64,000 bases of DNA from Paracholeplasma manati. GTDB taxonomy: Bacteria; Bacillota_I; Bacilli_A; Acholeplasmatales; UBA5453. Below, in pieces: positions 47,478-52,313 of the stretch (within the stretch, counting starts at the first letter, position 1; each line of letters begins with the position of its first letter). The notes beneath the pieces were generated by a model. That model searched no databases and was not told the origin of the DNA. It worked only from the letters and a program-made list of their open reading frames with translations. The stretch lies in contig NZ_JAOVQM010000004.1 in NCBI RefSeq assembly GCF_025742995.1, positions 62,001 through 126,000 of the forward strand, given 5' to 3'. The position numbers and the translations under genes are program-made.

Positions 47478-49481
47478 ATGAGTATCCAAACCCCTTATGA
47501 GTTTATCAAATTGCATCAGATTGGTCCGATCAAAGTCGATGAAGCATTGTTATTCAATGGTTATTTATACTATTCGGATAAATCGACTATTTTGATTGAT
47601 TTACCAACTTCAGAATGGATGAGCCAATACAAAGAACGCATTGAACTCATCATTCCTGTTGACTCTATTCAAAATTTAATCATCGCGCATCCGAATTTTT
47701 CAATGATGATGTCACTCAAAATCTTGATTCAAATGGGATTCAAGGGATCCATCATCACCACTAGAAATATCGCGAAGCAAATCGTTCAAAATGGCATCAA
47801 ACTGCCAGTAACCACCATTGAAAAACTCGATTATCAGTGGTATGGACAAGACTTTAAACTGAATTTTCTACCAATTCAGTTTTTACCCTTTACTTACGCA
47901 TTTATGATTTATGAGTCAGAAACCCGTTCGTTGATTTCGAATACCTTGTTTTCAAGTTTTAAAGTGGATAATCCTGCTGACTTGATACAACTTAAACAAG
48001 GGATTTTTGCCTATCATAAAACCAATTTTCCATCGTCAGAATATCTAAAAGACCCCATCCGACGCATCCGTCAACACCGAATTGATGCGATATGTCCATC
48101 GTATGGATACGTCTTAGAAAACGATGTCGATGGTTGGATCGAATATGAATATCAGTTGGATTTTTATAATGCTGGGCAAGTCTTTAAATACAATGAAGAG
48201 TTCATTAAAGAATTTAATTATGTGGAAATCATCAATCATATGATCAACCAATTACACAAGTCCTTAGACAGCAAAGAAATCTTGGATACTTTTGCAAAAT
48301 CTGACTTCATTTTGAGTGAAAAACCACTGGAATTGGTTCAATCTACCCATGTCGGCTACAAACTATGGCACGCCTTTTTCGAATACATTTACGCGAAAAA
48401 GGGCTCGGTCTGGTTAACCATTCTAGAACCATTAATCAAACGATATCACAATATTTTTGGTTTGGATTTACCAGCCATCTATGTGTCGAAAATGATGGAA
48501 GTCACCAAAACCAATGAATTATTGGCATTGGATAAAAAGACATTAGAAGAAAACCTACAAAGACTAGAAGCCCAAATCGAAGAAACCAAAGAAGCGATGC
48601 TTAGATGCCCAATCACGAAGCTATACACAGAAGATGTGATGCGAGCGTTGCTTAAAAAAGATCTAGAATCGTCTGAATTCTTTGAAAAACAAAATGGATT
48701 TATATTGATTCAACTGGATCAATTGTTTGACATTAACAAGCGTTATGGTAAAGATACTGGAGATGAAGCGATTCGAAATCTCGCTTATGTCATTGGACAA
48801 ATCGCACCAGATTCAGTGAAGTTATTCAAACAAAATGGGCCAGGTATCTTGGTTTATGCTTCTTGTGAGAAGAAGGAAAAAATCACAGAATTTGCTGTTT
48901 CTGTACGAAATGCAGTCAGGGATTCCGTATTATTTATCGAAAAAGTCACAGCAAGTGCGTCTCTCGTCTTTTATGAAGAATTGAACCCTGTGTTGACACG
49001 TGATAATAAAATCAAAGAAATATTCATTCTACTCGAACAACGAATTCGCTTAGCAAAACAGCTGGGCTATGGGGAAATTGTTGACAACAGTGCCGCATTA
49101 CCAGCGCTTAAAGAAGGGATTATTCTCTTGGTTGATGAAGATGACATGAATCGTAATATGTTGGTTCGTGTGTTTAATCGTTTGAACTTTGAAGTCAAAG
49201 CAGTCACCTCAGTTGAGGATGCCCTCCATGTCTTAAGAGAATACCCAATTGACATCATCATCTCTGAAATCAATTTATCCAAGATGGATGGCTTCGCTTT
49301 AAAACGTGAACTCAATGAATCCAAAACATACACCAACATCCCGTTCATCATGGTTTCGCATAATAAGACCGTTGAAAACATCCGTCGTGGGAACTTGCTC
49401 AATGTGGATTTGATCATTGAAAAGCCTATCATTCCAGAAGAATTGATTGGACATGTCAAGCGCTATCGAGAAAGAAGGTAA
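47478..49481 (+). CDS. Degenerate MBL-GGDEF-receiver regulatory protein
   Basis: This 667-residue protein seems to have three parts. Residues 1-245 follow a metallo-beta-lactamase layout of the flavodiiron ODP type: LIDLPT, then IIAHPNFSMMM where HxExDH is expected, and ICPSYGYV where PSHG is expected, so the metal ligands are lost. Residues 370-530 follow a GGDEF domain, with FDINKRYGKDTGDEAIRNLA typical, but the GGDEF signature itself is NGPGI, so no cyclase activity is expected. Residues 547-667 form a receiver domain: VDEDD (552-556) and the late Lys in EKP are kept, but the phosphoacceptor Asp is Glu597 (ISEINLSKMDG). It is probably a sensor or binding protein. It starts 6 nt upstream of a glycosyltransferase locus. 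Confidence 0.7.
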   Translation: MSIQTPYEFIKLHQIGPIKVDEALLFNGYLYYSDKSTILIDLPTSEWMSQYKERIELIIPVDSIQNLIIAHPNFSMMMSLKILIQMGFKGSIITTRNIAKQIVQNGIKLPVTTIEKLDYQWYGQDFKLNFLPIQFLPFTYAFMIYESETRSLISNTLFSSFKVDNPADLIQLKQGIFAYHKTNFPSSEYLKDPIRRIRQHRIDAICPSYGYVLENDVDGWIEYEYQLDFYNAGQVFKYNEEFIKEFNYVEIINHMINQLHKSLDSKEILDTFAKSDFILSEKPLELVQSTHVGYKLWHAFFEYIYAKKGSVWLTILEPLIKRYHNIFGLDLPAIYVSKMMEVTKTNELLALDKKTLEENLQRLEAQIEETKEAMLRCPITKLYTEDVMRALLKKDLESSEFFEKQNGFILIQLDQLFDINKRYGKDTGDEAIRNLAYVIGQIAPDSVKLFKQNGPGILVYASCEKKEKITEFAVSVRNAVRDSVLFIEKVTASASLVFYEELNPVLTRDNKIKEIFILLEQRIRLAKQLGYGEIVDNSAALPALKEGIILLVDEDDMNRNMLVRVFNRLNFEVKAVTSVEDALHVLREYPIDIIISEINLSKMDGFALKRELNESKTYTNIPFIMVSHNKTVENIRRGNLLNVDLIIEKPIIPEELIGHVKRYRERR

Positions 49482-49487
49482 GACCGT

Positions 49488-50144
49488 ATGAACTTACCAA
49501 CTTTGATCACACTCATCGCTTTTTTAAGTTTGGTTTCCTTACTCATCGCGATGATTATTTTACAAAAAATCCATTACAAACGCCTCAGTAAAAAACACAT
49601 GTTGGCGCGTGATTATTTATTCAAAAAATACTTCGATTTAGAGGATGTTATGCCAAAAACATCGAGTCGATTCTTTTTTGACGCTTATATCGATATTGAA
49701 ACCCAAATCACCATTGAAGAGGTAGTTAGAAAACGCATCATTGATGATCTTGAGGCTTTAAAATTCACTCGAAAACAATTTAAAAAACTTCATAGTTTTT
49801 CACCATTTAAGCGCCGTGTAGCGGTATATTATCTCAACACGCTCAATACAAAACAATCGCGTGATGCTCTATCTAAACGTTTGACAGTTGAGAAAAACGA
49901 TTCCGTTCGTTTTTATATCATTTACGCCATTAAAGAACACATTACCCCATCAGATTTCGAGTTCATTTTACATACCCTTAACGCATCGAAAGCATCGTAT
50001 CCTCATTGGATTTACGCGATCTTAAAAAACCGATTTGAAGTCATTAAACCTTACCTCAATGACTACATCCATGATTCACGTAAGAAAGTGAAACAATTCT
50101 TTTTATACTTATCCAATCATATTTATAACGATCAATTGAAATAA
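49488..50144 (+). CDS. N-terminal part of an interrupted HEAT-repeat/GT2 protein
   Basis: This 218-residue reading frame has one membrane helix (about residues 5-27) and then charged helical repeats that look HEAT-like (for example KRRVAVYYLNTLNTKQSRDAL). It ends at a TAA (50142-50144). The same frame continues without further stop through 50145-50162 into the next coding segment, and the repeat pattern continues across the stop. The simplest reading is one gene broken by a nonsense codon. Function follows from the second part. The start follows the regulatory gene after 6 nt, with AAGGTAAGACC upstream. Confidence 0.65.
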   Translation: MNLPTLITLIAFLSLVSLLIAMIILQKIHYKRLSKKHMLARDYLFKKYFDLEDVMPKTSSRFFFDAYIDIETQITIEEVVRKRIIDDLEALKFTRKQFKKLHSFSPFKRRVAVYYLNTLNTKQSRDALSKRLTVEKNDSVRFYIIYAIKEHITPSDFEFILHTLNASKASYPHWIYAILKNRFEVIKPYLNDYIHDSRKKVKQFFLYLSNHIYNDQLK

Positions 50145-50162
50145 TACGCCATCGACCGTTTT

Positions 50163-52313
50163 ATGGATTTGAATGAGGATAAAGATATTCGAAAAGAAGC
50201 CATTCATGCACTCTCAAACATGTATCCTGAAGAATTGATCAACGACACTTATCTGTTACATAGCGATGAAGCCATCCGAAAGATGGCAATCCGTGCTTGT
50301 TCGACAGTTGTCAACAAAGAGATGACCCAAAACCTGTTGAATCAAATGGATGGGTCCATGATGGATATGGAACGTGCCAATGCGTTGTCTCGTATCGTAT
50401 TTGATTCGAAAAAGCTTCTGATTTATTTGTTAGAGTATTACCCATTAGCCGCGAATGACCATCAAAAGATGGCCATATCACGTGTGCTTTCACACCATTT
50501 AGACTATTTGACTTTAAAGTTAAAATCCCATGAGTACCCACAAGTCAAACTGATCATTCAGGACTTGTTAAAGATGCACATCACAGAAGACTTGATTGAT
50601 TTTATCAATATGAACAAAGACAAAGAAGTTGAGAATGACCTGATCAAAATCATCAAGACTTTCGCAACCCAAGATAAGTATTTATTGGATGAATTCAGTG
50701 TTTATTTGAATCAGACTGTACTCAACAAGTTGGGCCTAATTAAAAAACCACTGCCAACCTCCATCCGTGAAAAAACCCCATTCGAATTGAACAAGGTGGT
50801 ATGGATCAGTTTTTGGATCTCAATCGCAGTAACACTATTCCCTATTTTATTCTTAATATTGAATTTTAGACTCGTATTATCAGGGGAACCCCTATTAGAA
50901 ATCTTTATGGTCAACATGAACCGATACTTGTCATATTACTTTATCGTTATCAACACGATTTATCTGATTTTGATGTTATTTTCCATCAAAGGATCTGTTG
51001 AGCGTATGGCCATGTGGCGAATCAAAAAACAAACGCTCTTGTTTGAACATGATTTATTGCCATCCATTTCGATTATTGCGCCAGCTTACAATGAAGAAAA
51101 AAGCATCATTGAAAGTATCACTTCATTGCTGAATCTCAAATACCCTAAATATGAAGTCATCGTTGTCAATGATGGATCAAAAGACGACACCATTGGGACC
51201 TTGGTAAGGCATTTTGAAATGGAACGAAAACACCCCTTCTTTCAAATGAAACTGAGAACCAAACCATTGAGAAGTGTGTATGTGTGTAAGCAAATTCCGA
51301 ACCTGATTGTCATCGACAAACAAAATGGTGGGAAAGCGGATGCGTTAAATATGGGTATCAACGCTGCAAAGAATGACTATATATGCGGGATTGATGCGGA
51401 CTCCTTATTGGAAGAAGATGCATTATTGAAATTGATGAGCATCACTTTAGATGACGCAACCAACCATATCGCGATTGGAGGAAACATCGTTCCTGTCAAT
51501 GGCTGTAACGTGGATAAAGGTAAGATTGAAAAGAGCGGATTAGGTAAAAACCCAATCGTTCGTTTTCAAACATTAGAATACTTAAGAGCGTTTACGACAG
51601 GTCGTATTGGGTGGTCAAAACTCAATAGCCTACTCATCATCTCTGGTGCGTTTGGTCTATTCAACAGACGTTCGCTTATCGACACCGGTGGGTATCTCAC
51701 CATCAGTGGGGATTTAAAGAAAGACACCGTTGGTGAGGACATGGAACTGGTCGTCAGGTTGACGCACAAAGCCATTCAAAATAAACAACCGTATCGTGTT
51801 GCTTATGTCCACAATGCCAACTGTTATACAGAACTGCCTTCCGACATGCGCTCTTTATTAAAACAGCGCAATCGTTGGCAACGTGGTTTATTGGACATCT
51901 TGAGTTACCATCGACAAATGTTGTTTAACCCTAAGTACCGTCAACCGGGACTATTGGGCTTCCCTTATTTCTTCATCTTTGAAATGATGGGACCGTTCAT
52001 TGAAATGTTGGGTTATATTGCGTTATTTGCGTCCTTATTCATTGGTATTTTGAATTTTGAACTGGTCGTCTTGTTATTTTACGCGAGTATCGGTTATGGC
52101 ATTTTGATTTCACTCTTCAGTTTGTGGATTTCAGAACGTCAAAGTGGCTTTTACCGCATTTGGGATGCCATCATATTAATTATATTGGCGATTGCAGAAA
52201 ACTTTGGCTATCGTCAAATCATGAGTTTACATCGTGTCAGAGCAACCTTCGCTGCCCTTCGTGAAAATGGGTCTTGGGGTAGTCTGTCGAGAACAGGTTT
52301 TCAAAAGAAGTGA
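50163..52313 (+). CDS. C-terminal part: HEAT repeats plus processive GT2 glycosyltransferase
   Basis: From the first ATG after the TAA this segment codes 716 residues. Residues 1-190 are HEAT-like repeats, followed by two membrane helices (about 216-240 and 255-275) and a GT2 domain (300-545) with IIAPAYNEEKS, VNDGSKDDT, GIDADSL (about residue 410), TVGEDMEL and the QxxRW box QRNRWQRG. C-terminal helices form the rest of a channel, as in PgaC/BcsA-type synthases. It probably builds and exports a polysaccharide. No ribosome-binding site precedes the ATG, so if it is expressed alone, re-initiation or stop read-through would be needed. A terminator overlaps its stop. Confidence 0.8.
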   Translation: MDLNEDKDIRKEAIHALSNMYPEELINDTYLLHSDEAIRKMAIRACSTVVNKEMTQNLLNQMDGSMMDMERANALSRIVFDSKKLLIYLLEYYPLAANDHQKMAISRVLSHHLDYLTLKLKSHEYPQVKLIIQDLLKMHITEDLIDFINMNKDKEVENDLIKIIKTFATQDKYLLDEFSVYLNQTVLNKLGLIKKPLPTSIREKTPFELNKVVWISFWISIAVTLFPILFLILNFRLVLSGEPLLEIFMVNMNRYLSYYFIVINTIYLILMLFSIKGSVERMAMWRIKKQTLLFEHDLLPSISIIAPAYNEEKSIIESITSLLNLKYPKYEVIVVNDGSKDDTIGTLVRHFEMERKHPFFQMKLRTKPLRSVYVCKQIPNLIVIDKQNGGKADALNMGINAAKNDYICGIDADSLLEEDALLKLMSITLDDATNHIAIGGNIVPVNGCNVDKGKIEKSGLGKNPIVRFQTLEYLRAFTTGRIGWSKLNSLLIISGAFGLFNRRSLIDTGGYLTISGDLKKDTVGEDMELVVRLTHKAIQNKQPYRVAYVHNANCYTELPSDMRSLLKQRNRWQRGLLDILSYHRQMLFNPKYRQPGLLGFPYFFIFEMMGPFIEMLGYIALFASLFIGILNFELVVLLFYASIGYGILISLFSLWISERQSGFYRIWDAIILIILAIAENFGYRQIMSLHRVRATFAALRENGSWGSLSRTGFQKK

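Follow-up and report, generated by a model that had tools for sequence, protein, structure and literature searches.

In Paracholeplasma manati, an in-frame TAA that interrupts a putative polysaccharide synthase gene, hereafter HEAT-GT2, is likely a recent, lineage-specific nonsense mutation that probably inactivates the gene. The DNA analysed here, referred to as the window, is a stretch of 64,000 nt from the draft assembly GCF_025742995.1 (28 contigs), covering positions 62,001-126,000 of the forward strand of contig NZ_JAOVQM010000004.1. The first-pass annotation had described 49488-52313 as a single frame with one TAA at 50142-50144, and a frame check confirmed this. The frame has 942 codons counting stops, the TAA at codon 219 is its only internal stop, and its final stop lies at 52311-52313 (Table 1). 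No second copy of the HEAT-GT2 gene was found in this genome.

Table 1 Features of the interrupted HEAT-GT2 gene and its upstream partner, in window coordinates.
Feature	Coordinates	Strand	Remarks
Upstream partner: ODP-type metallo-beta-lactamase fold + GGDEF + response-regulator receiver; intact here	47478..49481	+	Pfam domains, conserved
N-terminal fragment: membrane helix + first part of HEAT-like solenoid, 218 aa	49488..50144	+	Ends at premature TAA
Premature in-frame TAA, codon 219	50142..50144	+	Sense codon in 11/11 aligned homologues
Remainder of solenoid, membrane helices, family-2 glycosyltransferase domain	50145..52313	+	D-x-D 51393, GED 51732, QRNRW 51864

Seven genomes of the genus were compared, our own included (G001-G006 plus the present genome). 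The HEAT-GT2 gene contained zero internal stops in the same-species genome G002 and in G004, G005, and G006, compared with one TAA in our own genome. In G001 and G003 no more than weak, partial matches were seen, which we read as absence of the gene, and a family search of 13 genomes (including the same seven) found no further full-length homologues. In G002, whose DNA is 98.2% identical over 19.3 kb, the gene (locus L002) is a single open frame of 941 codons. Homologues from eleven loci of named genomes, including Acholeplasma oculi, Acetobacterium, and Trichococcus, were also aligned; by coordinates and identity, this set overlaps with the genus set (L002 is G002, L003 is G006, L004 is G004, and L005 is G005). 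A full-length open frame was present in ten of the eleven loci, and the frame of L007 was incomplete because its contig ends there. At the position of codon 219, the eleven homologues carried Asp (4), Gln (3), Asn (2), Arg (1), or Ser (1), and none carried a stop. The comparison with sister genomes suggested by the first-pass annotation thus returned a sense codon in G002 and in all of the aligned homologues, and homologues encoded as two separate genes, which it had named as the finding that would speak against a disrupted gene, were looked for and seen in none of the eleven. Both halves lay on one gene in every relative holding HEAT-GT2, with no split case, and the interruption is thus more than chance.

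As predicted from its homologues, the intact HEAT-GT2 gene normally encodes one protein of ~941 residues, which would comprise an N-terminal membrane helix, a cytoplasmic HEAT-like solenoid, additional membrane helices, and a family-2 glycosyltransferase (GT2) of the PgaC/cellulose-synthase type. The downstream part matched the family-2 glycosyltransferase domain PF00535 in Pfam (87.8 bits). The best NCBIfam match of the intact same-species protein was TIGR03937 (PgaC/IcaA), with 120.5 bits against a cut-off of 422.3; scoring far below that cut-off, the protein is by sequence a relative of PgaC/IcaA and not a member of the family. Three motifs, which we take to be the catalytic D-x-D, (T/G)ED (GED here), and QRxRW motifs of GT2 enzymes, were kept in all eleven aligned homologues and in the C part of the window gene, and on these motifs the predicted enzyme counts, broadly speaking, as a processive GT2 synthase. 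It resembles PgaC/IcaA-type synthases (TIGR03937) in having a membrane-embedded GT2 domain with these motifs, while cellulose and NodC synthases are more distant relatives. Unlike the PgaC/IcaA synthases, it has an N-terminal HEAT-like solenoid of ~350 residues. By homology, the product of the enzyme is probably a surface homopolysaccharide.

Neither half of the gene reached the Pfam HEAT_2 cut-off of 27.7 bits (14.4 and 16.8 bits), and it is for this reason that we call the solenoid HEAT-like. A profile of the homologues matched artificial HEAT-like alphaRep proteins over approximately residues 95-332, spanning codon 219. For L002, the protein from the same species, the AlphaFold model had a mean pLDDT of 67.1 and a helical solenoid at approximately residues 60-414 with pLDDT mostly 80-95; around codon 219 the model was all-helical with pLDDT near 90. 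Since the glycosyltransferase half was poorly modelled, only the solenoid half was used for the structure search, and its best PDB matches in Foldseek were alphaRep proteins and importins. Taken from the alphaRep profile, the helical model, and the Foldseek matches, the predicted structure is a solenoid of helix pairs, which supports the earlier claim that the HEAT-like pattern runs across the TAA. In the model, codon 219 falls within helix 215-226 in the middle of the solenoid, and therefore the stop would cut a repeat and not mark a domain border.

In comparison with G002, dN/dS of the HEAT-GT2 gene was 0.058 upstream and 0.037 downstream of the stop. The corresponding values were 0.045 for the partner gene and 0.043, 0.038, 0.027, and 0.016 for the window ORFs that we take to be topA, polA, ffh, and tpx, respectively; those presumed to be ftsY and ylxM had zero nonsynonymous changes. 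Relaxed selection past the stop was not seen, as is expected for a very young stop and equally for a sequence error. Changes relative to G002 were polarised by branch using two outgroups. The C part had 5 synonymous and 0 nonsynonymous changes on its own branch; the sister branch had 9 and 3, while 33 and 4 (37 in total) stayed unpolarised. The N-part counts, in the same order, were 2 and 2, 5 and 0, and 15 and 3. A simple Poisson estimate, in which half of the synonymous changes are taken to have arisen on the own branch, accepted neutral evolution over 10% of the branch (P 0.07-0.15) and rejected it over 20% (P 0.001-0.006). The low dN/dS on both sides together with this estimate leaves three readings: a young stop, continued translation of the downstream part, or a stop that is not real.

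Across nine segments compared with G002, the premature TAA was the sole stop difference, and the few alignment gaps all lay between genes. Furthermore, 66 of the 69 window ORFs of at least 100 aa had a match in G004. The other flagged ORFs, inspected by eye, were read as antisense ORFs, start extensions, ORFs at the window ends, a small neighbour under the length limit, and weak paralogue matches. General decay of the region was considered and rejected, with HEAT-GT2 being the only gene in the 64-kb window judged interrupted against G004.

Four origins had been offered for the stop in the first-pass annotation. A recent nonsense mutation is the best supported of these and sequencing error is its main rival, while read-through found no support and phase variation by point change has no evident mechanism. 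By comparison with the relatives, a recent point change in the P. manati genome would have turned codon 219 into TAA. Translation would halt there, and the 218-residue fragment so released would lack the catalytic domain; with no good start close by for the downstream part, we infer that the enzyme is most likely lost. The change would have been too recent for the remainder of the gene to decay. Against this reading, the stop depends on one base of a single 28-contig draft assembly, which could be a base-call error, and the low downstream dN/dS would also fit with continued translation of the C part or with no real stop. We consider it unlikely that the organism carries an intact gene and that the TAA arose through an error of base calling or assembly, or from a variant of a minority strain if the assembly is a metagenomic one. 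One substitution in a 28-contig draft would suffice for this, the same-species genome has an intact copy, and the coding sequence is undecayed on both sides of the TAA. However, the assembly looks clean elsewhere, with no other interrupted window gene relative to G004 and no gaps inside the genes compared with G002.

Bypass of the stop by the cell was also considered. ARAGORN, run on chosen loci of our draft genome, assigned an anticodon to all 40 tRNAs (four of the stretches being extra), and none of these anticodons reads UAA, although tRNAs in contig gaps would be missed. On this count (0 of 40), a suppressor tRNA was rejected. Real read-through or stop reassignment giving the full-length protein could explain the purifying selection on both sides of the TAA, but it is very improbable: a stop at this position is not conserved (0 of 11 homologues), no UAA-reading tRNA was seen among the 40, and other window genes end at ordinary stops, at full length relative to G004. 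In general, termination is efficient where a U follows UAA.

Shine-Dalgarno duplex energies were computed for every in-frame start codon up to 50900. The ATG at 50163 had an energy of +0.4 kcal/mol, whereas the median over 26 gene starts in the window was -7.9 (range -1.6 to -12.2), which bears out the earlier observation that no ribosome-binding site precedes it. The best downstream starts were the ATGs at 50358-50367, with a moderate value of -6.0 that falls inside the range of the 26 gene starts, so that a shorter C-terminal product, with even less of the solenoid, may still be made from there. The undecayed C part and this moderate match would suit a functional gene split, with the 218-aa fragment as one product and, as the other, a C-terminal enzyme made from a downstream start. 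Nevertheless, we give such a split very little credence, as no homologue is split here, the ATG at 50163, the first past the stop, lacks a Shine-Dalgarno match, and the cut falls inside a solenoid helix.

The nonsense mutation itself would be an ordinary event, as losses of capsule glycosyltransferases are of a known kind. Passages in PMC10462825 describe the inactivation by mutation of the pneumococcal capsule glycosyltransferase gene wciE, with an altered surface polysaccharide. The P. manati case is alike in that a glycosyltransferase gene carries an apparently inactivating mutation, but it differs from the case in those passages in enzyme, pathway, and organism. For annotation, the locus should be marked as one disrupted gene, neither as two genes nor as a recoded gene. 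The text of PMC11658790 reports membrane GT2 synthases of Mycoplasma that make capsular homopolysaccharides, some of them phase-variable; as described there, these enzymes are similar in being membrane GT2 synthases of wall-less relatives. Acholeplasma has zero occurrences in the main text of that paper.

Directly upstream of HEAT-GT2 lies a partner gene (Table 1) whose product, as assigned by Pfam, is a fusion of an ODP-type metallo-beta-lactamase fold with a GGDEF domain and a response-regulator receiver. A similar gene occupies this place in all five genomes of the genus that hold HEAT-GT2. The GGDEF motif was degenerate in all eight aligned partner proteins, and the position that we presume, on the family pattern, to hold the phosphorylated aspartate of the receiver was Glu in seven and Gly in one of the eight. 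On these residues, the partner may be a conserved regulator that signals without catalysis or phosphorylation.

In Paracholeplasma vituli (G006, L003/L070), the partner gene is frameshifted and the HEAT-GT2 gene is whole; the frameshift lies in or close to a seven-A run, at ~1200-1240 of the L070 reverse complement. Two of the five genus genomes holding the two-gene unit thus have it broken, each by its own kind of lesion and in a different gene, with the caveat of sequencing error for both. From these sequences, breakage of the unit has probably occurred on more than one occasion. The broken units in more than one lineage, the frameshift at a seven-A run, and the phase-variable capsule production reported in the text on Mycoplasma (PMC11658790) would all be compatible with reversible on/off variation of the surface polymer via point changes in the population. 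However, the TAA site has no repeat tract, a point stop has no mechanism of fast reversal, and the lesions seen in the two lineages are of different types and hit different genes, so that we find such switching hard to credit. As a tentative idea, and one we hold to be improbable, the two-gene unit may make an optional surface polymer that Acholeplasma-type bacteria, as a contingency of wall-less life, repeatedly lose through mutations that arise independently in one gene or the other.

A limited search of the open literature (titles and abstract starts) turned up no description that we recognised of a HEAT-GT2/ODP-GGDEF pair. Among the aligned loci, a similar partner lay directly upstream of HEAT-GT2 in the six named loci with neighbours listed (L005 and L008-L012), and Pfam confirmed its domains in the five that were submitted. 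The adjacency of ODP-GGDEF-receiver and HEAT-GT2 genes in these loci was seen in Acholeplasmatales, Clostridium, Acetobacterium, and Trichococcus, and the conserved pair could be studied in relatives that keep the unit whole.
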